Assembly: GCF_003350345.1 (NCBI RefSeq)
Contig: NZ_QNVJ01000064.1
Span: 248,001 to 312,000, forward strand
DNA from: Alkalilacustris brevis
Lineage (GTDB): Bacteria > Pseudomonadota > Alphaproteobacteria > Rhodobacterales > Rhodobacteraceae
Direction of reading: 5' to 3'
Length of the DNA stretch: 64,000 nt
The notes beneath the pieces are model-generated. The model was not told the DNA's origin. It made no database searches and saw nothing but the letters and a program-made list of their open reading frames with translations. This document shows positions 51,477 to 64,000 of the stretch, in pieces (position 1 is the stretch's first letter; the number at the start of each line of letters is the position of its first letter). The position numbers and the translations under genes were made by a program.

Positions 51477-51593
51477 ACGGGGCATCCGAAGGCAAGGCCA
51501 TCACACGACGGCCACAGCGATTTGAGGGCTTGGCGCTCAGGCGTCACCCGGCTTAAGCTTGCGGCTTCATTCAGGCGACCCCATTTCCTGCCG

Positions 51594-54308
51594 ATGTTCA
51601 AAGCGCTTTTTCCAGTCGTACTTGCCCTTGCCCTGCCTGCCGCACCGCTGGCCGCGCAGATCGGCCCGGCCGCCGGTGGCAGCGCCAGCCCGCGCCTTGC
51701 CGCTGAACTGCAAGACGCCGCCAGCGCCTTCCTGCGCGCCTATCGCCTGCAAGATTGGGCCGCCGCTGTCGAACTGGGCAAGCCGCTGCTCGCCCGGATC
51801 GAGGCCAGTCACGGCCCCGCCCACCCCGAGCGCGCGCAGGTCGGGGCAAATCTGGCCTGGGCGCTGTGGCATTCGCGCGCGCATGAAGAGGCGCTGCAAC
51901 TCTTCGACACGCTCCACGCCGAGATCCCCCCCGACAACCCCGGCCATGACGCATTCCAGGCCGACTATGCCCTGTTCCTGATCCGCGCCGGGCAGAACAC
52001 CCGCGCCCTGCCCGTGGCGCTTGCCGTGGCCGGACGCGCCGAGCGCGAGCGCGGCCCCGACGCCCCCGAAACGCTGTCGCGCCAGCGCAGCCTCGCCGAC
52101 CTGCTGCGCCAGATGGGGCAGCTGGAAGAAGCGATCGAGATCTATCGCACCTTGCTTGCCCGGCAACAGGCCCGCCCCGGCCTGCCCGCCGCGCGCGAGG
52201 CTGCCACCATCCAGTTCATGCTGGCCGACAGCCTCGACAAGATCGGCGAGATGGACCGCGCCATTGCTGCCTATCACGCCAGCGCCCGCGCCCATGATGC
52301 CGCCTATGGCCCGGAACACCCCGAAACCCTTGCCGTGCGCTTTGCACTGGCCCGCGCGCTGGACTGGATGCGCGACAGCGCCGGGCTGGCCGCCGAACTG
52401 GAGCATACCATGCCGCGCATTGCGCGCGTTTTTGGCGCCGAAGGGGTGGAATATGCAGGCTGGGTGCAGCTGCGCGCCTGGCAACGGCTGGAGGCGGGCG
52501 ACACGACCGGCGCCCGCACCGACATGACCGAGGCCGCGCGCATGATCGCCGGCCAGCTGCCCGACAATCACCAGCTTGTCGGCGTGGCCTATCGCTGGTT
52601 GTGCATCCTGCTATGGGAACTGGGTGATATCGAAGGCGCCTGGGGGGCCTTCGAGGCGATGCTTGGCGCTCAGGCACCCGACCGCAAGATGCTGCTCGAC
52701 CTGCTGGAGGAACGCCACGACCGCGGCCTGATCGACGAACATGAGCTTGCCCGCCTTGCCCTGCTCCACCTGCAGGGCACCGTAAGCGGCTCGGTCCGCG
52801 GCGCCGTGCGCGAACAATACCTGCGCGGCATGTTGCGCGACCCCGAACTCGCCCGGCTCTACCGGCTGGGCACCGACACGGTCGAGGAACGCAACGCCGT
52901 GCAAAGCGAGTTGATCGAACTGGTGCGCCGCCCGCTGGAACAGCGCCCACCGGGGCAGGAAGCCGCCCTGTCCGCGCGCCACGCGGAATTGAACCGGATC
53001 GCCAAGGATGCCTTCGCGCAGGTCGATGCAGCCGAGCCTGCCTTTGCCGCCCTGCGCGGTGAAACTCTGGTGGAGCTTGACGCGCTGCAGGCGATGCTCG
53101 CAGCCGACGAGGCCTTTGTGCTGATCGATCACCAGCGCCATGACGAGGAATGGAGCATCGTCATCGCCGTCACCCGCGATCAGGCCGCCGCGCGCATCTT
53201 CTGGCACCCGGTGGACGGGATCGAAGGCGCCGTTGCCGAGATCCGCGACAACATGAACCTGACGCTGGGCACCCGCGGGGCGGTGGCGATCGGCGGCGGC
53301 GCGGACGATCCGCGCGTCTTTCCCTGGGAGGCGGCAGTCAGGCTGTTCGACCTGTCTTTCGGGCAGGTGTCCGACCTGACCTATGGCAAGGCGCACCTTT
53401 ACGTCGAGCAGCGCGGCCCGATGTCGAGCCTGCCGCCGGGGCTGTTGCTGCCCTACGTGCCCGAAGCTGACCTGAGCACCGCGACGGCACCCTGGCTGAT
53501 CCATTTTCACGCGCTCACGGTCCTGCCGTCGCTCACCAGCCTGCAAGCGCAAGTGCTGGGCCGCGAGGCCCCGCGCGCGCCCGAACCTTATGCCGGCTTT
53601 GCCAACCCGGTCTTTTCCGGGGTCGCGCCTGAACCGGCATTGATGACTGCTGCCACCTCGGAAAGCGCCTTGCGCGGACTGCTGGCCCCGCTACCCGAAA
53701 CCGCCATCGAGGCCCGCGCGGTGCAGGCCGCGCTGAGCGGCAGCGCCGGGCCGCAGGCCGCCGCCACCCAGCCGCCCGCCGGTGCGCTGTTGCTCGGCCC
53801 GGAGGCCAGCGAGGCCGCGCTCAAGGCAATGCCTCTCGATCGCTACCGGGTGCTGCATTTCGCCACGCACGGGCTGATTACCGGCGAAAGCGCGGGGGGA
53901 ATGCTGCTGAACGAGCCGGCACTCGCCCTCACCCCCGGCGGCGGCGAAGACGGGTTCCTGACCGCCTCGGAAATCGCCATGCTGCAACTCAACAGCGACT
54001 GGGTGGTGCTGTCGGCGTGCAACACGGCGCTCGGCGAGCGGCCGGGGGCCGAGCCGCTTTCGGGGCTGGCGCAAGCCTTCATCTATGCCGGCGCACGGGC
54101 GCTTCTGGTCAGCCATTGGCCGGTGGAAAGCCACTCGGCCGTGCAGCTTATGACCGATATCTTCCGCCTGCGCGCGCAGCACCCGCAAGAACGCGCCGCC
54201 GAAACCAAGGCGCACGCGATGTCCGCCATGATCACCGACCCGCCCGATCTGCGCTGGTCGCACCCGGCCTATTGGGCGCCCTTCATCCTGGTGGGCAACC
54301 CCGACTGA
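51594..54308 (+). CDS. Exported TPR-CHAT domain protein (putative caspase-like peptidase)
   Basis: A 904-residue protein with a signal peptide (MFKALFPVVLALALPAAPLA, cleavage near AAQ). Several TPR-like helical repeats (about 40-330, e.g. LADLLRQMGQLEEAIEIYRTLL) precede a CHAT domain (about 550-900). The CHAT catalytic pair is visible: His in RVLHFATHGLI and Cys in WVVLSACNTALGE, so it may be an active caspase-family cysteine peptidase. LVSHWPVESHSAVQLM and the terminal HPAYWAPFILVGNP are typical. Location is periplasmic or beyond. The start at 51594 is chosen for the signal peptide; the frame is open to 51522. Confidence 0.88.
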   Translation: MFKALFPVVLALALPAAPLAAQIGPAAGGSASPRLAAELQDAASAFLRAYRLQDWAAAVELGKPLLARIEASHGPAHPERAQVGANLAWALWHSRAHEEALQLFDTLHAEIPPDNPGHDAFQADYALFLIRAGQNTRALPVALAVAGRAERERGPDAPETLSRQRSLADLLRQMGQLEEAIEIYRTLLARQQARPGLPAAREAATIQFMLADSLDKIGEMDRAIAAYHASARAHDAAYGPEHPETLAVRFALARALDWMRDSAGLAAELEHTMPRIARVFGAEGVEYAGWVQLRAWQRLEAGDTTGARTDMTEAARMIAGQLPDNHQLVGVAYRWLCILLWELGDIEGAWGAFEAMLGAQAPDRKMLLDLLEERHDRGLIDEHELARLALLHLQGTVSGSVRGAVREQYLRGMLRDPELARLYRLGTDTVEERNAVQSELIELVRRPLEQRPPGQEAALSARHAELNRIAKDAFAQVDAAEPAFAALRGETLVELDALQAMLAADEAFVLIDHQRHDEEWSIVIAVTRDQAAARIFWHPVDGIEGAVAEIRDNMNLTLGTRGAVAIGGGADDPRVFPWEAAVRLFDLSFGQVSDLTYGKAHLYVEQRGPMSSLPPGLLLPYVPEADLSTATAPWLIHFHALTVLPSLTSLQAQVLGREAPRAPEPYAGFANPVFSGVAPEPALMTAATSESALRGLLAPLPETAIEARAVQAALSGSAGPQAAATQPPAGALLLGPEASEAALKAMPLDRYRVLHFATHGLITGESAGGMLLNEPALALTPGGGEDGFLTASEIAMLQLNSDWVVLSACNTALGERPGAEPLSGLAQAFIYAGARALLVSHWPVESHSAVQLMTDIFRLRAQHPQERAAETKAHAMSAMITDPPDLRWSHPAYWAPFILVGNPD

Positions 54309-54349: not shown

Positions 54350-55168
54350 TCAGCGCAGGCGCGGCGGGCGCTCCGGATCCGTCCCCGGCGCGGGCCGGGG
54401 GCCAGGCGGCTCGGGCGCGGCCTCGGGTTCGGGCAGGTCAAAACGCAGACCGACACGCGCCAGCCTGGGCAACAGGGCGTCCTCTGCATCCAGAAACGCC
54501 ACGTCCAGCGCCGCGGCCTCAAGCCCCGAGAACGCCAGCGCCTCGCCCACTGCGCGGGCCAGCGCGCGCTCGGCCTCGGGCACGGTGCCGACAAAGGCCA
54601 GCAGATGCCCCTGCCCGCCCCCCTTGTAGCGCACGCCGCACAGCCAGGCCGCCTGTGCCAGCCCCGCAGCCCGCGCCAGCCGCGCATCGAGCGCGGGCAA
54701 CAGCGCCTCGGGCAGCGCGCCGGGCGGGGTGATTTCTTCGGGACGTGCGGTCATCTCGCGCGGGGTCTCATTCAGCATCCCGGCCAGCCAGTCCATTGCC
54801 TCGGCGGGCAACAGAATGGACGAGGGTGCAACATCCAGGTTCAGACCCAGCCCTAGCGCCTGCCCCGCCAGCATCCGCGCCAGAACCCGGCCCGGCAGCG
54901 CGGCATAAGGCACCGCCGCCCCGGCAAAGCCCGCCAGCCGCGCCTCCGTGTCAAAGGCCAGTACCACCGGTCCGCTTTCCAGCGGAAACACCTGCGGGCG
55001 CAAGGTTTCGCCCTTCGCCTCTTCCTCGAGCATCAGGAAAAGCTCGCTGTCGGCAAGGCAGGCGTGAAAGGCCATGCGCGCGGCCACATCGCTGGGCGCG
55101 GCGGACATCGCCGCATGGGCGTGGTCAAGCGCGGTTTCGTCGGGCATCTGCTGCTGGGGTGTCGTCAT
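54350..55168 (-). CDS. SseB-family protein
   Basis: A 272-residue protein with the SseB N-terminal-like pattern: ALDHAHAAMSAAPSDVAARMAFHACLADSELFLML, LRPQVFPLESGPVVLAFDTEARLAGFAG and LLPAEAMDWLAGMLNETP. Despite the name this family is widespread and not tied to type III secretion. The C-terminus is Pro/Arg-rich (PRPAPGTDPERPPRLR). Its ATG at 55168 overlaps the stop of a truncated uracil-DNA glycosylase gene (ATGA), so it was the second gene of that operon. Confidence 0.8.
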   Translation of the reverse strand: MTTPQQQMPDETALDHAHAAMSAAPSDVAARMAFHACLADSELFLMLEEEAKGETLRPQVFPLESGPVVLAFDTEARLAGFAGAAVPYAALPGRVLARMLAGQALGLGLNLDVAPSSILLPAEAMDWLAGMLNETPREMTARPEEITPPGALPEALLPALDARLARAAGLAQAAWLCGVRYKGGGQGHLLAFVGTVPEAERALARAVGEALAFSGLEAAALDVAFLDAEDALLPRLARVGLRFDLPEPEAAPEPPGPRPAPGTDPERPPRLR

Positions 55169-55468
55169 TCGGACAGGGCCTTCTGCACGGCGCGGCGCAG
55201 CGCGGGCAACAGCTCGGCCGCGAACCACGGGTTACGCCTGAGCCAAGCCGTATTCCGCCAGGACGGATGCGGCAAGGGGAAGACGGCAGGCTCGGCCCCG
55301 CGCGCGGCAAGTTCGCGCCAGCGGGCCACCGTTTCAGTCACACCCGCGCGGCTGCCCAGGTGCCAGCGCTGCGCATATCCGCCCACCAGCAGCACCAGCC
55401 GCAGGTCGGGCAGCGACGGCGAACAGGGCGGGGGGCCTGCATGGCAACCGCAGCGCGGGCGGCAGCAC
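55165..55468 (-). pseudogene. Uracil-DNA glycosylase family gene, 5'-truncated remnant
   Basis: Only the C-terminal part remains: LRLVLLVGGYAQRWHLG through FPLPHPSWRNTAWLRRNPWFAAELLPALRRAV. This contains the conserved HPSxRN motif of the UDG superfamily. A full gene is about 190-210 codons; the N-terminal iron-sulfur/active-site region (with the GxAPG motif) is missing. Similarity upstream is marginal (PPPCSPSLPDLRL) and stops near 55468, at the stop of the HlyD-like gene. The fragment's stop overlaps the sseB start. It is probably non-functional. Confidence 0.75.
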
Positions 55469-56221
55469 TCAGCCGTCAGGCATGAACGCCCGGCAAGACG
55501 TGCCCGCGATGATCGCGCCGTCCTCGTTGTCGATCAGGGCATGAAGCCGGAAGGTCTGGCTCACCGGCTCTATCAGCACATCGACGAACGAGATTTCGGC
55601 CTCCACCTCATTCCCGTCCGCCAACGCGATCACAAGCGTCTCGCTGACGCTGAGCGGCTGATGAAACTGGCCGGGCACATCCAGTTCGGCCTGCAGCGTA
55701 TCGACCTGCACGAGCCGGATCAGCGGGCCATCGGGCGCAACCTCGCCCACATCGGCGAAAAGCTCGACCACCACGCCATCGTGGGGCGCGCGCAGAACAT
55801 AACGCCGCTGCTCGGCGATCAGCCCATCACGCTGAATCTGCGCAATCAACAGCTCCGATTCAATCTCGCTCAGTTCCGCGACGGACAGAACACCTTGCAT
55901 CTGATCGGCCCGCTCAAGCCGCTGGCGGGCCATTTCAAGCGTGACCTCGGCCTGCCGCATCTGCGCAACAAGGCTGCCCTGGCCCAACTCGAGCAGCACA
56001 TCGCCCTCTGAAACGCGGTCGCCAAGCCGGTGATGCACGGTCTCGATGATCTCGCGCGCACTGACCGACAGGCTTGAATCGCGTTTGGGCACCAGGCGGC
56101 AGTTGGCCGCCCCCAGATCGAGCACGCCACCGGGCGCGGACTGTGCAAAAGTCGGCGTCGTGAACGCAAGCGCAACGGCCAGCGTGCTACCTGAGACGGC
56201 TGAAAAGAAATACTTCATCAC
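55469..56221 (-). CDS. Periplasmic HlyD-like adaptor subunit
   Basis: A 250-residue protein with a signal peptide (MMKYFFSAVSGSTLAVALAF, cleavage near TFAQSA) rather than an HlyD membrane anchor. The barrel-sandwich halves are visible as HHRLGDRVSEGDVLLELGQ and RAPHDGVVVELFADVGEVAPDGPLIRLV, bridging a short helical hairpin (QMRQAEVTLEMARQRLERAD). It is the last gene of the export cluster, overlapping the SecA-like gene by 35 nt. I infer a periplasmic adaptor linking the two HlyD-bearing membrane proteins to an outer-membrane channel not encoded here. Confidence 0.85.
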   Translation of the reverse strand: MMKYFFSAVSGSTLAVALAFTTPTFAQSAPGGVLDLGAANCRLVPKRDSSLSVSAREIIETVHHRLGDRVSEGDVLLELGQGSLVAQMRQAEVTLEMARQRLERADQMQGVLSVAELSEIESELLIAQIQRDGLIAEQRRYVLRAPHDGVVVELFADVGEVAPDGPLIRLVQVDTLQAELDVPGQFHQPLSVSETLVIALADGNEVEAEISFVDVLIEPVSQTFRLHALIDNEDGAIIAGTSCRAFMPDG

Positions 56222-58151
56222 GCTCCATATCCGCTTTGAACAGTTGCTTTCTCACCCGCGCCTTCTGCCGCTCTCGGTTGCGCTGATACAGACGCAACCA
56301 TACCCGAAACACACGATCTGCCAAGCCCGGAGCCGTGCGCGCCAGCGCCACGAGGCCCTGGCGCACCAGCGCTGTCATCGCCTCGTCAAGGGGGCGCTCG
56401 TCCAGCGCATGGGCGAAATCGTGGCTGCCGGGGTCGCCCTGACGCCCGGCGCGGCCGAAAAGCTGCCGCTCAAGCCGCGCGGAAGGCAACACCTCGGCAA
56501 TAATGACATGCAGCCCGCCAGCCGCGCGCACCTCCGGGTTCAGCTTGATGTCGGTGCCGCGCCCGGCCATGTTCGTCACCACCGAGATCGCGTCGATCTG
56601 CCCGGCCTGCTTGACGATCTCGGCCTCCTGCTCAAGATGCTTGGCGTTCAGCACCTGATGCTCCAGCCCTTTACGGTGCAGGGCGGCACTGATCGCGTCC
56701 GAGGCCTCGACCGTGTTCACCCCGATCAGAACCGCGCGGCCCGCGGCCTGCATCGCTGCGGTGCGCTCGGCCACCCAGGCGTCACGCTGGGCCGAGGTGA
56801 CGAATATGCGATCATGCTGGCAGAAATTGCGCACTGGCCGATGTGTCGGCACATGAACCGATGCGGCCCGGTAGACCTTGCGCAATTCGCCCCGCACCTC
56901 GTGCAGGGTCCCGCTCATGCCGCAAATCTTGTGATACTTGCGAAAATAGCTCTGGAAGCTCAGCTTGGCGATTGTGCGCCGGTTGGGCGAAACCTCAAGC
57001 CCTTCGCGCACCTCCAGAACCTGATGCAGCCCCCAGGGCAGCGAGCGGTCGGGGGTGGGGCGCCCTGTCTGCGGGTCGATCAGCACGATCTTGTCTTCCT
57101 CGACGAAGTAATGCACATCGCGGCGGAACTTTTCCCGCGCGGTCTTGGCCTGCATCAGCACCTCTTCGGCCAGCGCGAAGGACTGCCATTCAGGCGCCGG
57201 ATCGGAGATGTCGTCGATCAGCGTTTTCAGGAAACGCGGGTTCAGATAATAGCTTTCGCTACGGCTGACATACTCCCAGACACTCGGGTCCATCCGGTCA
57301 ACCAGATCTATGGCCTGCTCGACGAAATGGCGCGACAGGGCAGACGACTCCTCGCGGGTGAGGATTAGCGGAATGTTCGCATCGTCGATCAGAACGCTGT
57401 CGGCCTCGTCGATGATGACAAAGCCCAGTTCCGTCACCATCCGGCGATCCTGCTGGAACGAGGATTTGACCCGCTCGGCGAAGGAGCCGGATTCCTGCAG
57501 CTTGATGCGATCCTTGAGATAGTCGAAGACCAGTTCCTTGTTGGTGCAATATGTCACGTCGCAACCATAGGCCGCGCGACGTTCCTTCGGGTTCATGCCG
57601 TTGACAACGGTGCCCACCTCAAGCCCCAGCATACCGAGCACCGGCGCAACCTCTTCGGCGTCACGCGCGGCGAGATAGTCGTTCACCGTCACCACATGAA
57701 TGGGCGTGCCGGCCAGCGCATGAAGCGCGGCGGGCAGTATGGCGGTGACAGTCTTGCCCTCGCCCGTTGCAAGCTCGACAAAATTTCCGTTGGCCAGGTG
57801 AAACCCGGCCAGCAACTGGTTGTCATGGTAGTGAAACCCGAAGACCCGCTTCAGAACCGCATCGACCAGCGCAAAGCATTCCGCCAGGTCGACATCTTCC
57901 AGCGCGGCCTTGCGCAGCCGCGCGGGAAGCGCACGCGCGCGCTGCCTCAGCTCCGCCTCAGGCAGGTCGGACAGGGCTGCCCGCTCACGGTGAATTCCGC
58001 GCAGCACCCGGCGCGCATGCAGGCGGCGGTTGCACTGCTCGCGCCAGCGCTGCCTGGCGATGTCGATCAAGCTGCGCTCGCCATGTGCGATTTCGGCGGC
58101 ATTCAGCGCCAGCCCGGTGCGCGGCGGGGGGATATCACTGACCCGGGCCAA
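56187..58151 (-). CDS. SecA paralogue lacking most C-terminal domains
   Basis: A 654-residue DEAD-type ATPase clearly related to SecA: Walker A ELATGEGKTV (residues 127-135), CDVTYCTNKELVFDYLKD, Walker B FVIIDEADSVLIDDANIPLI (244-), NBD2 KICGMSGTLHEV (409-), TNMAGRGTDI (526-535) and GRAGRQGDPG (566-575). It ends just after VRKQLFKADMERDEV, so the long helical scaffold, the two-helix finger and the zinc-binding tail of housekeeping SecA (about 850-900 residues) are mostly absent. The preprotein-crosslinking domain region is short and divergent. It overlaps genes on both sides and is surely part of the export operon. Confidence 0.9.
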   Translation of the reverse strand: MARVSDIPPPRTGLALNAAEIAHGERSLIDIARQRWREQCNRRLHARRVLRGIHRERAALSDLPEAELRQRARALPARLRKAALEDVDLAECFALVDAVLKRVFGFHYHDNQLLAGFHLANGNFVELATGEGKTVTAILPAALHALAGTPIHVVTVNDYLAARDAEEVAPVLGMLGLEVGTVVNGMNPKERRAAYGCDVTYCTNKELVFDYLKDRIKLQESGSFAERVKSSFQQDRRMVTELGFVIIDEADSVLIDDANIPLILTREESSALSRHFVEQAIDLVDRMDPSVWEYVSRSESYYLNPRFLKTLIDDISDPAPEWQSFALAEEVLMQAKTAREKFRRDVHYFVEEDKIVLIDPQTGRPTPDRSLPWGLHQVLEVREGLEVSPNRRTIAKLSFQSYFRKYHKICGMSGTLHEVRGELRKVYRAASVHVPTHRPVRNFCQHDRIFVTSAQRDAWVAERTAAMQAAGRAVLIGVNTVEASDAISAALHRKGLEHQVLNAKHLEQEAEIVKQAGQIDAISVVTNMAGRGTDIKLNPEVRAAGGLHVIIAEVLPSARLERQLFGRAGRQGDPGSHDFAHALDERPLDEAMTALVRQGLVALARTAPGLADRVFRVWLRLYQRNRERQKARVRKQLFKADMERDEVFLFSRLR

Positions 58152-60297
58152 AACGCGCCATCAGTGCGGTGTAGACCACCGGCCAAAGCCGGTCGAACAC
58201 GGTTTCGGGCGGATGGTGCAGCTTGATGCGCACCCGCGAGCCGATGGCGGCGGGCGGAAGCGGCCCCTCGATTTCAAGCGCGAATCCCGACTGCACCGTG
58301 TGGAAGCCGTCCATGTCCTCGCTGTCCTGGGTCATGACCGGCCCGCCGAAACGGTCGGCCAACTGCGGCGCATGCAGGCTGCGCGTGGCATTTTCCAGGA
58401 TATGACCCTGCGCAGCATCGGCCTGCGCCTGTGTGCCGTCAGGGAAAAGCAGCGCATAGCCGGACACACCGCGGCGCAACTGCCGCGCGCGCCGTTCCTG
58501 CACAAAGCCCACGATGCGGCGGTTTTCCGGCGCATCGACCACCCCCAGCATGGCCCGTAGGGGCACGAATGCCCCTTGGTGAAACACTGCAGCCTCGGCG
58601 GACCAGCGCCCCGAGGCCGCCGCGCGCACCTCGGCCTCGCCGATGCGGCGGTCAAGATCGGCGCGCACGGCCTCAAGCGCGTCGATCTCGCGCTGAACCG
58701 CGGCGGCGAAACCGGCATTGCCGCTGGACTGCGCGCCGCGCAGGCGGATGGTGGCGCCTTCGATCTTGGCGTCGAGCACCTCGCGTTCGGTCAGCAGGGC
58801 ATCGGGGCGCAGAGAGAAAAGCGGTGCCCCCTCTTCCACCGGCATTCCCATGCGGACATGGATTTCATCAATGAACCCGGCCACCGGCGCATAGACGGTG
58901 CCCGACTCGGCATGGATCACAACCCCATCCACCACGGTGCGGCTGGGCAGCGGTACCACCGCAAGAAGTACGCCGGCGCCAAGCGCGAAGGCCCCGGCAC
59001 GAAGGAAGAACTTGCGCGGCATGAATGTCCCCGACGTGCCTTTGAAGAATGCAGTAACCGATTTGATGCTGGGATGCACCAGCCCCGCATAGACAACCCA
59101 TATGGCCAGAAACTGCCCCATGAAGGGAACAATCTCGATCACCAGAAGCGCGATGGTCAGGGTGATGAACACCTTGTAGCACGCGGCTGCCACCCCGTAG
59201 GCGGCCAGCCACATGCGCGCACTCGGCCCCGCCGTTTCGCTGTCGGGCGCAAGCTGAGAGCCCAGCGCAAGACGCAGCCACCGCCCCAGAAGCTTGTTCG
59301 CGCGGGTGCCCAGATTGGGTGTCTGCGTCAGATCGGACAGGATGTAATAGGCATCGAAACGCAACAGCGGGTTGCCGTTGAAGAACAGTGTCGAAACCGT
59401 GCAGATGAACACCACGTTGAACAGCACGGCCCGCCACAGCCCCGGATCGCTATAGGTCCACAGGATCATGGCCATGGCGGCCAGCGCAAGCTCGGCCAGG
59501 ATACCCGCCGCGGTGATCAGCGCACGCGATTTGTGCGCGCGCAGGCGGTTGGCCTCGGAGGCGTTGACATAGGGCATCGGCACGAAAACCAGAAACATCA
59601 CGCCGGCTTCGAACACATCACCGCCAAAGCGGCGGATGGCCAGCGCGTGCGCCAGTTCGTGAATGAGCTTTACCACCGGATAGACCAGCGCGAGGATCAG
59701 AAGATTGTCGGGCGCAAGCGCCCGGTCGGCCAGGTTGCGGCTGAACGGCTGCCAGTTACCGATGGCGAAATAGACCCCCGTCGCAATCAGCGCGATGAAG
59801 GCCAGCAGCCCAAGACGCGAGAACAGCACATGCGCCAGCAACGTGGCTGGTGCGAGGCGCAAGAAGTTCTTGGGATTGATCAATGGGATCTTCTGACTGA
59901 CAGGCGATTTCAGGACGCGCAGCACCTTCTCCCAGGACTTCTTTTTCTGAAGACGCGCGATCTGGGCCGAGCGCGGCGGCGTATCGACCGAGATCAGCCC
60001 CGACTGATACATCTGCGAAAGCGTCTCGATCAGTTCGTTCTGGGTGGGCAGGTTCGGCGCGTTCGACCAGGCAAGCTCGTTCCAGACATCCTCGATCGAA
60101 TGCTGCCCGTCGAATTGGCTGAAGATGCGGAAATCGGCCTCGGACAGGCGATAGGTCTTGCCGCCGGTGCGGTCGTGAAAGACATACCAAAGCTCACCCA
60201 GGTAATCATGCACGAAAACTTCAAGCTGGGTGCGCAGCCTTGGCCTGAGGTCAGCAACCCGGTGCCAGTCCTGGCTGAGAAGCTGAAGATGCGCCAT
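58135..60297 (-). CDS. PqqD-like / M50-like / HlyD-like fusion membrane protein
   Basis: A 720-residue protein with three parts. Residues about 20-105 resemble a PqqD-like winged helix (RTGGKTYRLSEADFRIFSQFDG ...), a fold that binds leader peptides. Residues about 150-430 are a polytopic site-2-protease (M50)-like domain with HELAHALAIRRFGG (HExxH at 213-217) and the second motif NPLLRFDAYYILSD (Asp 315). From about 440 to the end is a HlyD-like barrel-sandwich region (AESGTVYAPVAGFIDEIHVRMGMPVEEGAPLFSL). It overlaps secA-like downstream by 17 nt. It may be the membrane component of the exporter and may process its substrate. Confidence 0.85.
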   Translation of the reverse strand: MAHLQLLSQDWHRVADLRPRLRTQLEVFVHDYLGELWYVFHDRTGGKTYRLSEADFRIFSQFDGQHSIEDVWNELAWSNAPNLPTQNELIETLSQMYQSGLISVDTPPRSAQIARLQKKKSWEKVLRVLKSPVSQKIPLINPKNFLRLAPATLLAHVLFSRLGLLAFIALIATGVYFAIGNWQPFSRNLADRALAPDNLLILALVYPVVKLIHELAHALAIRRFGGDVFEAGVMFLVFVPMPYVNASEANRLRAHKSRALITAAGILAELALAAMAMILWTYSDPGLWRAVLFNVVFICTVSTLFFNGNPLLRFDAYYILSDLTQTPNLGTRANKLLGRWLRLALGSQLAPDSETAGPSARMWLAAYGVAAACYKVFITLTIALLVIEIVPFMGQFLAIWVVYAGLVHPSIKSVTAFFKGTSGTFMPRKFFLRAGAFALGAGVLLAVVPLPSRTVVDGVVIHAESGTVYAPVAGFIDEIHVRMGMPVEEGAPLFSLRPDALLTEREVLDAKIEGATIRLRGAQSSGNAGFAAAVQREIDALEAVRADLDRRIGEAEVRAAASGRWSAEAAVFHQGAFVPLRAMLGVVDAPENRRIVGFVQERRARQLRRGVSGYALLFPDGTQAQADAAQGHILENATRSLHAPQLADRFGGPVMTQDSEDMDGFHTVQSGFALEIEGPLPPAAIGSRVRIKLHHPPETVFDRLWPVVYTALMARFGPGQ

Positions 60298-62099
60298 CAG
60301 GGGGTCCAGCGCCAGAAAAACTGGTAAAGCGTATCGAATACCGGTTTCACCCAGATACGCCAGAGCGGTTCGGGCGGCAATTCCAGCCGGGCCACGCCCT
60401 GCATCCCGTTTTCCAGCCGCAGGCCCTGCGGCTCGACCAGCGCGTAACCAACGAAACGCAACTCACCCTCTTCGGGCTGAGCCGCCGGATTGACGCGAAG
60501 CACCTGAACGGGCAGCGGGCGGTCGGGGGCAACATTCATCCGCAGCCGCCCCGAAAGCCCCTGCTCAAGCCGCGCGCCGTCGCGGTTCGAGACACTGAGG
60601 CGCGCCTCGGTCGCCTGGCGCGAGGCGATCATCAGCAGGTTCTCGCCATGCTCGATATTCGAGCCCACCCTCTGGCGCAGGTCGCCCTGCAGCACGATGC
60701 CGTCGATCTCGCTGCGCACAAGGGTGCGCGCGATGTCACGTTCGATCAGTTCCAGCCGCGCCTGCACTTCCGAAGCCTCGGCGCGGGCGACAGCGGCGGC
60801 GCCGAGGTTGCGTTCGCGTTGGGCGATGGCCTCTTCGGCGCGCAGTTTTTCAAGCTGCGCAATCAGTTCCAACCGCCGCAACTGCATGTCGGTATCGTCG
60901 ATCCGCGCCAGCACGTCACCGCGCTGCACCGCATCGCCCGGCAGCACCATGATTTCCAGCAGCGTGCCGTCCATTGGAGCGGCCACCGCGCGCAGACCCG
61001 GATCGTCGATCACCGTTTCGGCCCGCAAGGTCGCTGGTGTCTCCACCAGAACCAGAGCCGCAATCAGCGCCGCCAAGGCCAGGCCGATGACCTTTGCCCA
61101 GATATGCCGCGGCCCGAGCAGATAGCCGAAGAACTGGCCCAGATCGTCAACCGCCTTGCCGATCAGGGTGCGCGCGTTCTTCTGCTGAAGCTCCAGCACC
61201 GGTTGCGCCATGATCCAGAGCGGCTCCCACAGCTTGAGATCGGGCACGGCCTCAAGCCTGGTCCATTGCAGCACCATCGCGCCACGCATCTCCGCACGGG
61301 CATCGGATAGCGGAATCACCGCGACCGCCTCGTCGCCATGCTCGGCGGCAAGCGTGGCCAGCGGGGTCTGCACCGGATCACCCTTTTTCCAGAACAGTTC
61401 ACGGCGCTGGCGCAGGGCCTCGGTCGCGGCCTGTTCCGTCAGGTCATTGAGTTGCGTGCGCCGATCAAAGCTGACCACGCCCGAGATCGAGCGCAGCCGC
61501 ACCCGGCGCCCGCGCCCCCTGCTCACGAGCGAGATCCGCGCGGCATCGAAAACCTCGGCCACTTCGACGCAAAGGCTTTGCCGTGCTTCGGTAATGTCAT
61601 CGGAAGACAGCATCTCGGCCGAAATGGTGAAGGCGCGCGCCTGCACATTCAGCCGGTGCTGCGCCGCCTCAAGATCCTGCCGCGCGACGAGATGCACCAC
61701 CCAGCCGGCCGCAATCTGGATATGCTCCATCAGTAGCTCGACCTGCCGCGCGGGCATCGCCTTCAGCCCCAGCAGCACGAAGATCCGCCGATTGCTGACC
61801 CTCAGCGGCAGCACCAGCGCCTCGGCGATGGTGTCTTGCTCGACATCGAGCGGGGCGATCACGCCATTGCCGCTGTCTGCGGCCTCGGTCAGCGGCTTGT
61901 GATAGGCCCGGCGCAGGGCAAAGCTTTCAGGGGCAGCGGCGCGCACCTCGAACGAAGTCTCGGCCAGTTCGACGACAGCCGCCTCGACGATGCCGCGCAG
62001 GCTCCCCACCACATGGCGACACCATGCGTGGAGATCGGGAAACACCGTCTCGCCCGCGCCCGGATCAATGCCCAGAAAGCTCTCATTCGCCGCCACCAT
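60297..62099 (-). CDS. GAF-like sensory domain fused to a HlyD-like adaptor
   Basis: A 600-residue protein. The N-terminal half (about 20-300) is soluble and GAF-like, probably two domains (e.g. SLCVEVAEVFDAARISLVSRG ... EAVAVIPLSDARAEMRGAMVL). One membrane helix (about 332-353, IGLALAALIAALVLVE) follows, then HlyD-type lipoyl halves (AAPMDGTLLEIMVLPGDAVQRGDVLARID ... GIVLQGDLRQRVGSNIEHGENLLMI) around a long coiled coil (ELIAQLEKLRAEEAIAQRERN). It appears to be an inner-membrane adaptor with a cytoplasmic sensor. Its stop overlaps the M50-like gene start (TGATG). Confidence 0.87.
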   Translation of the reverse strand: MVAANESFLGIDPGAGETVFPDLHAWCRHVVGSLRGIVEAAVVELAETSFEVRAAAPESFALRRAYHKPLTEAADSGNGVIAPLDVEQDTIAEALVLPLRVSNRRIFVLLGLKAMPARQVELLMEHIQIAAGWVVHLVARQDLEAAQHRLNVQARAFTISAEMLSSDDITEARQSLCVEVAEVFDAARISLVSRGRGRRVRLRSISGVVSFDRRTQLNDLTEQAATEALRQRRELFWKKGDPVQTPLATLAAEHGDEAVAVIPLSDARAEMRGAMVLQWTRLEAVPDLKLWEPLWIMAQPVLELQQKNARTLIGKAVDDLGQFFGYLLGPRHIWAKVIGLALAALIAALVLVETPATLRAETVIDDPGLRAVAAPMDGTLLEIMVLPGDAVQRGDVLARIDDTDMQLRRLELIAQLEKLRAEEAIAQRERNLGAAAVARAEASEVQARLELIERDIARTLVRSEIDGIVLQGDLRQRVGSNIEHGENLLMIASRQATEARLSVSNRDGARLEQGLSGRLRMNVAPDRPLPVQVLRVNPAAQPEEGELRFVGYALVEPQGLRLENGMQGVARLELPPEPLWRIWVKPVFDTLYQFFWRWTP

Positions 62100-62130: not shown

Positions 62131-62457
62131 TCAGCCGGTTGTGATCGTGCCTTCACCCTGCGGCTGCACCGTCTGCCCCCCGGCTTCGATCTGGCCGTAG
62201 CGGGCCTCATGCTGGGCGATCGCGTTGACCAGCATCGCCGCCAGGCGCTTGGCCGTGGGCGGCGTCATGATGATGCGGTCGTTCAGATCCACCTCGAAAT
62301 CCTTGGTCTTGCCGTGCCAGGAACGACCGATGCCGATAAGCAGAGCGAACTCTTCCTGTGTTGCGGCCACGTTGGCCACGTTCGCATAGCTGGTGCGCAT
62401 GTTCTGGTCGCGAAAGACGACCGTCTTGCCACCCTGTTCTGCCTTCATATCCGTCAT
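62131..62457 (-). CDS. DUF3467 family protein
   Basis: A 108-residue cytoplasmic protein (VVFRDQNMRTSYANVANVAATQEEFALLIGIGRS ... DRIIMTPPTAKRLAAMLVNAIAQHEARYG) matching the DUF3467 family of unknown function. GGAGG precedes the ATG at 62457. It lies between the RTX-like gene (45 bp upstream) and the GAF-HlyD gene (31 bp downstream). By position it may be a chaperone or regulator for the exported substrate (inference). Confidence 0.88.
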   Translation of the reverse strand: MTDMKAEQGGKTVVFRDQNMRTSYANVANVAATQEEFALLIGIGRSWHGKTKDFEVDLNDRIIMTPPTAKRLAAMLVNAIAQHEARYGQIEAGGQTVQPQGEGTITTG

Positions 62458-62502
62458 CAGACCTCCAGTAGGTTTCCAAGCCATGCGCCGTTCGCGCAGC
62501 TG

Positions 62503-64000
62503 TTACTGTATCCGCCGCTCCGCATCGCCGGGCTGCCCGCACAACACGAAGCGCGACCCGTCCCACATGCGCAGCCTGCTTTCCAGGCTGTTCACGCGAA
62601 TCTCGCGCCGGCGGGTCATCGTGGCCACCGCGAAGATCCCAGCGCCCGCCTTGAGCGTATCATAAACCGCCAGCCCGTCATCGGCCAGTGGCCATGCGTC
62701 ATCGGCACCACCGTCTTCCGCAGCCGAAGCGCCGTTCATGGCTCCCGACCGCAGCGCGGCAAAACGGCCCAGCCCGTCGTCGCCGGAACCATTCAGATAC
62801 AGGGCGGCTTCTTCTTCGGCCTCGGCGTCTTCCTCGCCTTCCTCGCCGTCTTCGGAGTCTTCCTCCGCCTCCTCGCCGTTGGCGTCTTCGCCGGCGCCTT
62901 CGGCGGGTGTCTCTTGCTGGCCATCCTCGGCGGGTTGCTCCGCATCTTCTTCGGGCAGTGGAAGAAGGTCGTCGTCTTCCTCTTCATCCTCGCCGGCTGT
63001 CAGGTCGGCCATCATGCTGCTGAAGGCCGCCAGAAGATCGTCAAAGGTGTAGCTGGCCTGCGGCCCGGTCGCGGAACTGGGAACGCCGAAGACTTCGGAT
63101 ACGAAAGAAAGCGGCTCGGTCGTGCCTGTCAGGTCATCGAGCGGATCGTCACCTTCATAGGCGTTGCGCGTTTCGCGGTCGAAGCGGTTGTCGGTGGCGC
63201 CGAAATTCTCGACCTTGTCGATCGCCAGCCCGGCCGCCCAGCCCTGATACCCTTCTGCCGGGTCCAGCGCGTCAATCGCCTTGTCGGACTGGAACAGCAT
63301 CCGGCCATAGGTTTCCAGCACGATGTCGCGGGCAATCGCCACCCGGAAAGTGTTGATCATCGTACCGCCCATGACCAGCGCGCCGTCGAAATCCTCGGTG
63401 GCCGAAGCCCCCTCGCCCACGAAATGGCCGGTCAGGATCACATCGCCACCGCCCTGAAGGAAACTGCCCGCGCTGGAGACGATTTCATGCAGCAGCCCGT
63501 TGTTGAAAGTGATGTCGGCATAGTCGCCCAGCAAGACATCGCGCCCGGCATCGCCATAGATCAGATCACTGCCGCCGCCGCCCAGGATGATGTCGTTCCC
63601 GGCACCGCCGCGCAGATCGTCATTGCCACCGAAGCCCAGTTCGCTGGTCGCCATGAACACCGGCGCCATGGCGTCAATCGCCGGGTCGAACTCCGCAGTG
63701 CCGAGATCGCCAAACAGGATATGCGTGCCGCTTTCCGGGCTGAAGCTGTGGTCGCGGTTGTCGCGCGAAAGGTAATCACCCTCGAGCCTGCGGCCAGTCC
63801 AGATCGTGTCATCGCCGCCGCCGCCAAAGACAACTCCCTGCCCCGCACCGGCAATCAGCATGTCATTGCCCGCCAGATCGGTATGGATGTCTTCCATATA
63901 GGCCAGGTTGCCGCTCGACGCCCATTCGATGCGCCCGTGATCGAGCAGCACGAAGACATCGCCATCGCCCAGCAGCACGGTGTCGTCGCCACGGCCGAGG
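62503..64000 (-). CDS. Large RTX-like exported protein, C-terminal part
   Basis: Only the last 499 codons are in the window; the frame is open at the right edge. RTX-type nonapeptide segments occur near the top (LGRGDDTVLLGDGD, GGGGDDTIWTG, GGNDDLRGGAGNDIILGGGGSDLIYGDAGRDVLLGD, the last given as consecutive motifs), interspersed with other sequence. A highly acidic Glu/Asp-rich linker (about 70 residues) follows, then a basic C-terminus (TMTRRREIRVNSLESRLRMWDGSRF). The last part may be an export signal. It is the likely substrate of the downstream export genes. Confidence 0.88.
   Translation of the reverse strand, partial: LGRGDDTVLLGDGDVFVLLDHGRIEWASSGNLAYMEDIHTDLAGNDMLIAGAGQGVVFGGGGDDTIWTGRRLEGDYLSRDNRDHSFSPESGTHILFGDLGTAEFDPAIDAMAPVFMATSELGFGGNDDLRGGAGNDIILGGGGSDLIYGDAGRDVLLGDYADITFNNGLLHEIVSSAGSFLQGGGDVILTGHFVGEGASATEDFDGALVMGGTMINTFRVAIARDIVLETYGRMLFQSDKAIDALDPAEGYQGWAAGLAIDKVENFGATDNRFDRETRNAYEGDDPLDDLTGTTEPLSFVSEVFGVPSSATGPQASYTFDDLLAAFSSMMADLTAGEDEEEDDDLLPLPEEDAEQPAEDGQQETPAEGAGEDANGEEAEEDSEDGEEGEEDAEAEEEAALYLNGSGDDGLGRFAALRSGAMNGASAAEDGGADDAWPLADDGLAVYDTLKAGAGIFAVATMTRRREIRVNSLESRLRMWDGSRFVLCGQPGDAERRIQ

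Follow-up and report, generated by a model that had tools for sequence, protein, structure and literature searches.

A PqqD–M50–HlyD protein as a candidate receiving station of an ABC-less secretion machine for giant tagged proteins

Results

In a stretch of 64,000 nucleotides from Alkalilacustris brevis (contig NZ_QNVJ01000064.1, positions 248,001 to 312,000; the whole stretch is hereafter called the window), we found that a protein of 720 amino acids (aa), which joins PqqD-like, M50-like and HlyD-like modules, retains a conserved zinc active site and is encoded in one operon with a giant RTX protein of 13,922 aa that begins with a peptide tag of the LEPR-XLL type. The tag recurs on the giant neighbors of homologous loci, and its two versions correspond to two clades of the M50 protein. 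We consider it moderately probable that the giant surface-type protein has a secretion machine of its own, one that works without an ATP-binding cassette (ABC) transporter and in which the PqqD–M50–HlyD protein serves as the receiving station at the inner membrane.

The active site lies within the membrane core of the protein and has both elements of the site-2 protease family M50, the HExxH motif and a downstream aspartate ligand. The zinc motif reads HELAH (residues 213-217; 59647..59661, reverse strand) and stands at the cytosolic end of the transmembrane (TM) helix 196-223, while the third zinc ligand, D315, belongs to an NPLLRFD motif (59353..59373, reverse strand). H213, E214, H217 and D315 are invariant in an alignment of 11 sequences that tblastn and searches of whole genomes had yielded, as is the whole NPLLRFD motif, and the same four residues are invariant in 56 sequences. 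Across a larger set of homologs, HExxH and the aspartate motif NPxxRFD occur with the correct spacing in 106 of 106. Because 80 of these were selected through a scan of contigs for the peptide NPxxRFDG, the aspartate is present in them by construction, and its unbiased conservation is given by the other 26, chosen independently of it, all of which keep it. The initial annotation had read the two motifs as those of a protease able to cleave within the membrane and had named their lack of conservation among homologs of the same architecture as the observation that would speak against it; both motifs are kept.

The same annotation had placed the three modules in a single polypeptide, and profile searches, homologs and an AlphaFold2 model bear this out. 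The protein is encoded on the reverse strand (58135..60297) from an ATG start found in the open reading frame (ORF) list. Its N-terminal PqqD-like domain (residues ~17-102; 59992..60249, reverse strand) is of the RRE type (RRE, the recognition element of ribosomally synthesized and post-translationally modified peptides, RiPPs) and is predicted to be cytosolic. The window protein alone stays below the threshold of PF05402 (PqqD), which 37 of 56 homologs match (best E-value 2.2e-9), and the family profile matches the solved PqqD structure 3g2b over residues 17-102 (E 1.8e-4) as well as many solved adaptors. In the AlphaFold2 model, whose mean predicted local distance difference test (pLDDT) score is 89, the domain has three strands and then three helices, the b3-a3 winged-helix fold. 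Peptidase_M50 (PF02163) matches the window protein at E 4.6e-5, under the Pfam gathering score, and is matched by 52 of the 56 homologs. The modeled core consists of seven long membrane-type helices and a re-entrant strand pair, and it is followed by a C-terminal periplasmic adaptor of the HlyD/MacA type (residues 448-701; 58195..58956, reverse strand) that resembles MacA, AcrA and MexA (VIA Z 12-14). HlyD_3 (PF13437) is weak in the window protein and matched by 45 of the 56 homologs; the best Foldseek matches of the M50–HlyD model are all of the HlyD type. By helix parity, the seven predicted TM helices would leave the PqqD domain and the two zinc motifs facing the cytosol, with the HlyD domain in the periplasm. 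The adaptor motif RxxxLxxxxxxS was not found in the three adaptors of the window operon. On a Myxococcota contig (L112), the M50 ORF comes to 2,004 aa, with a frame that extends ~1,280 residues ahead of the PqqD–M50 part, either by fusion or as a chance open frame.

The giant neighbor enters the window with the 3' end of its gene (62503..63999, reverse strand), and the open frame was traced along the contig to G000:C8:352271, so that its start falls outside the window. Its 13,922 residues hold two cysteines, internal RTX repeats and a DUF4347 domain near the start, and its N-terminus is MNKFVKSPISRRRMAVEPLEDRILLSVDLIPY, in which the tag reads LEDRILLSVD. This N-terminus passes the NCBIfam LEPR-XLL model NF012209 (19.6 bits, cut-off 17; 23.3 bits in the genome search). 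A conserved peptide at one end of the RTX-like substrate, which the initial annotation had proposed to look for, does therefore exist, since this tag recurs on the giants of homologous loci. All genuine readable same-strand giant N-termini carry the general form (L/M/F)E(P)Rx(L/M)(L/F)(S/D), in full or with one residue changed; twelve such giants read (L/M)E(P/A/R)(R/K)x(L)(L/F)(S/N/A/Y). Left out of this count were the long frames at L066 and L086, Arg-rich and judged spurious as giants, and one frame at L019, which is a second fragment. The tag is also present on all plasmid giants examined and on the giants traced in genomes G005 and G013. As background, 12 of 2,456 other ORFs match a strict core pattern that is more stringent than the general form. 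The LEPR-XLL model was passed by 8 of 10 further giant N-termini; used alone it is too short for genome-wide counting, with 7 of 289 genomes passing, four of them through short ORFs, and three of the seven are among the 17 genomes with the M50 protein. C-terminal signals of type I secretion are poorly conserved, and no shared C-terminal motif was seen by eye among the giants. DUF4347 spans residues ~73-222 of the window giant (G000:C8, outside the window), after the tag; it contains one of the two cysteines (YACDLGQG), preceded by a His-Gly-His stretch, an arrangement that may recall caspase-like dyads.

Two versions of the tag can be told apart, one ending in LLSAD (type A) and the other in MFDAA, or LEPRxMFDAA in full (type B). 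We placed the 106 M50 proteins in a tree. For ten of them, position 8 of the cargo tag is Asp, and these all group in a single clade of 19 members (support 1.0); the 21 whose cargo has Ser, Asn or Ala there all lie outside it. When G005 and G013 are included, the split between tag and clade is 23 against 10 (Fisher ~1e-8, a value that ignores shared ancestry). G005 encodes both machines, each beside its own version of the tag: the type A machine on contig 12 adjoins a frame of 12,521 aa with FEPRVLLSAD, and the type B machine on contig 9 adjoins a giant with LEPRMMFDGA. As a comparison of sequences, this agreement is consistent with co-divergence of the tag and the M50 protein. In G013, the giant next to the type A machine (G013:C3:899701-961477) is broken up into frames of 2,246, 6,527 and 2,043 aa, through either decay or sequencing error.

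The operon runs on one strand in the order giant RTX gene, DUF3467, GAF-HlyD, PqqD–M50–HlyD, short SecA-like ATPase and HlyD, and its genes overlap or are separated by gaps of at most 35 bases. We compared 86 related loci, 80 contigs from a profile scan and six plasmid loci; a scan of the genome contigs with single sequences had returned no relatives, the peptides being too specific. The 80 contigs span many phyla, including Proteobacteria, Desulfobacterota, Nitrospirota, Verrucomicrobia, Planctomycetota and Myxococcota. GAF-HlyD accompanies the M50 gene in 84 of the 86 loci, the remaining two being interrupted by contig ends, and SecA-like, free HlyD and DUF3467 genes are present in 67, 59 and 27 loci, respectively. 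Fifty-two loci have flanks of 8 kb or more on each side, and 45 of these contain a same-strand giant, a raw count made without a control gene family for comparison. The plasmid homologs adjoin giant genes, DUF3467, HlyD proteins and SecA, and one neighbor is annotated as LEPR-XLL.

The short SecA-like ATPase of 654 aa (56187..58151, reverse strand) has GEGKT and DEAD motifs and matches PF07517 at 1e-85, with no match to SecA_SW in the Pfam scan; a canonical SecA is encoded elsewhere in the same genome, at C97, and the genome also has a SecB. Genomes with type B or SecA-less loci, several of them complete, have only a full-length SecA and no second one, whereas an additional SecA is present in the tested type A genomes (G005, G013, G337 and G338). 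The private SecA is thus optional, and the gene contents would leave the M50, GAF-HlyD and HlyD parts as the core of the machine. A SecA-less branch is found on enterobacterial plasmids, such as L018 (Citrobacter freundii pB18196_2) and further Escherichia and Citrobacter records, where it adjoins a 4,465-aa Ig-like protein with the N-terminus LESRQLFDGA, near tellurite-resistance genes. The IncHI protein RSP was considered as the cargo of this branch and rejected; the literature credits the plasmid's type IV system with its export, and the plasmid cargo is a different gene.

The remaining members of the window operon are also on the reverse strand. GAF-HlyD, an inner-membrane adaptor of 600 aa identified by profile matches (60297..62099), has one TM helix near residues 333-351 and a weak Pfam match to GAF. 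The free HlyD/RND-type periplasmic adaptor of 250 aa (55469..56221) has a signal-peptide-like N-terminus and matches PF16576 (1e-12) and TIGR01730 (1.2e-26). The DUF3467 protein of 117 aa (62131..62484; PF11950, 1.1e-17) is strongly conserved within type A operons. Its predicted fold had no confident match in the PDB, and a role as a SecB-like chaperone is unsupported (model pLDDT 78, Foldseek E at least 0.17, VIA Z below 5, SecB unlisted). A TolC-family gene lies directly upstream of the giant gene, and an Omp85-family gene lies further out; the latter, directly past the TolC-like gene on the same strand (G000:C8:354795-355934), encodes an Omp85-superfamily protein of ~378 aa. Among the operon, TolC and Omp85 genes, the locus genes that were scanned, none matched an ABC transporter family. 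An SseB-like ORF (54350-55228) was rejected as an operon member, as no homolog was found in the 86 loci. Facing the downstream end of the operon is a 928-aa TPR-CHAT protein (51522-54308, forward strand; CHAT 2.4e-43), possibly a caspase-like protease and unrelated to the operon as far as could be seen.

Discussion

We propose that the cytosolic PqqD-like domain would take hold of the LEPR-XLL leader with which the giant chain begins, the tag being the putative ligand of this RRE-type domain. The M50 core, whose active site is predicted to face the cytosol, would then probably cleave the leader at or near LLS-A-D of the tag. In loci that encode it, the short SecA-like ATPase would drive the chain across the inner membrane, a task that would otherwise probably fall to the housekeeping SecA; the HlyD domain of the M50 protein, together with GAF-HlyD and the free HlyD, would connect the exit to TolC. 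The initial annotation had envisaged that one molecule combines recognition, processing and hand-off. Since all three modules and the active site are real and conserved, this is a fair hypothesis that now stands on firmer ground, with leader binding and cleavage as its putative steps; the RiPP setting in which it was framed is unsupported.

Several observations weigh against the proposed role as a receiving station. The agreement between tag and clade is essentially one old split, and for this reason is no proof of direct contact; 7 of the 52 loci with full flanks have no giant within 10 kb; and the two type B giants tested fail the LEPR-XLL model (15.4 bits in one case, no match in the other), so that their tag is recognized by eye. 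On hydropathy, the distinction between the tag and a Sec signal is not clean, with a 12-residue maximum of 1.47 compared with 1.79 for the signal-like N-terminus of HlyD, and the topology of the M50 protein derives from a predicted model.

The M50–HlyD protein could belong to a giant-export machine and yet act differently, its membrane core being a structural part of the channel with proteolysis incidental, and the leader being read by another part and perhaps staying uncut. Such a role would agree with the proposal of Kamneva et al. that M50 proteins supply the missing transporter function (PMC4452313), with the lack of an ABC transporter among the scanned locus genes, and with type B and SecA-less genomes that manage without a second SecA. 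We nevertheless regard it as unlikely, for a purely structural role does not require H213, E214, H217 and D315, and both clades and many phyla retain them.

Site-2 proteases are classically signaling proteases. The enzyme might accordingly cut a target other than the giant, such as GAF-HlyD or some regulator, and work as a regulated-intramembrane-proteolysis switch that receives a signal via GAF and controls export, a reading favored by this classical role and by the adjacent partner, which bears the weak GAF match and stays with the M50 gene wherever the contig allows. This seems rather improbable to us: in the annotated loci, neither an anti-sigma factor nor a transcription factor was seen as a constant companion, and the conserved sequence that varies along with the M50 clade is the cargo tag. 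Maturation of a small RiPP precursor, bound by PqqD and cleaved by M50 as in the daptide or YydF/LiaK pathways, is very improbable and was set aside: the daptide protease model NF041824 does match remotely over the PqqD-like and M50 regions (residues 27-403, 7e-39), as does the YydH/LiaK model weakly (3.6e-5), but the 133.9 bits of the daptide match miss the equivalog cut-off of 300, and the conserved neighbors are SecA, HlyD, TolC and giants rather than modifying enzymes and short precursors.

The receiving station proposed here shares with family M50 the HExxH and NPxxRFD ligands, the re-entrant strand pair and a predicted cytosolic active site, whereas its flanking PqqD domain and periplasmic adaptor, and the lack of a recognized signaling substrate, set it apart. 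The daptide intramembrane metalloprotease model covers 379 aa, while the window protein continues into the HlyD domain and sits in a secretion locus. The system has HlyD-type adaptors, a TolC channel and an RTX-bearing cargo in common with type I secretion; unlike that system, its locus has no ABC transporter, the conserved signal is at the N-terminus of the cargo, and one subtype has an accessory SecA. LEPR-XLL (NF012209; related to the Planctomycete extracellular family PF07595) is known as an N-terminal motif of large proteins, and the cargo tag is this motif; new here is the second version, LEPRxMFDAA, which pairs with a distinct M50 clade.

The locus is the one described by Kamneva, Poudel and Ward in 2015 as an orphan secondary SecA_DEAD locus related to type I secretion, for which they suggested a function like that of type I systems, the M50 protein possibly forming the pore (PMC4452313). 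Their set and the window have in common a short SecA without the wing-scaffold region that is second to the canonical SecA, a HlyD protein with a weak M50 match, adjacent GAF-HlyD (a weak GAF match in our case) and HlyD proteins, sometimes TolC, and no ABC transporter. Their set was defined by SecA, whereas we found loci that lack SecA and share the core and the cargo tag; as far as its accessible text goes, that study names no cargo, leaves the active site unexamined, mentions neither zinc, catalytic residues, adhesins nor haemolysins, and gives no place to PqqD or DUF3467. What is added here, with priority not established, is the cargo, the tag, the active-site evidence and the SecA-less sister branch. 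A literature search, outside which lay most subscription journals and preprints, returned nothing in the accessible texts that links LEPR-XLL to a secretion machine or to this locus.

We propose more tentatively that these loci may represent a distinct ABC-less secretion class, in which an RRE-bearing site-2 protease would serve as both cargo receptor and leader peptidase, LEPR-XLL as the address tag, with two co-diverged tag–receptor pairs and an optional private SecA motor. Read across bacterial phyla, the genomic neighborhood suggests what the orphan machine may export and how the cargo may be recognized. The LEPR-XLL tag occurs on many giant bacterial proteins for which no machine is known, and the secondary-SecA/HlyD locus has been without a known cargo since 2015; if the link is true, each would explain the other. 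A widespread route without an ABC transporter would then gain a class of substrates, a tag that addresses them and a candidate for the leader peptidase, and a related branch of it is carried on plasmids of Citrobacter and E. coli with a large Ig-like protein.

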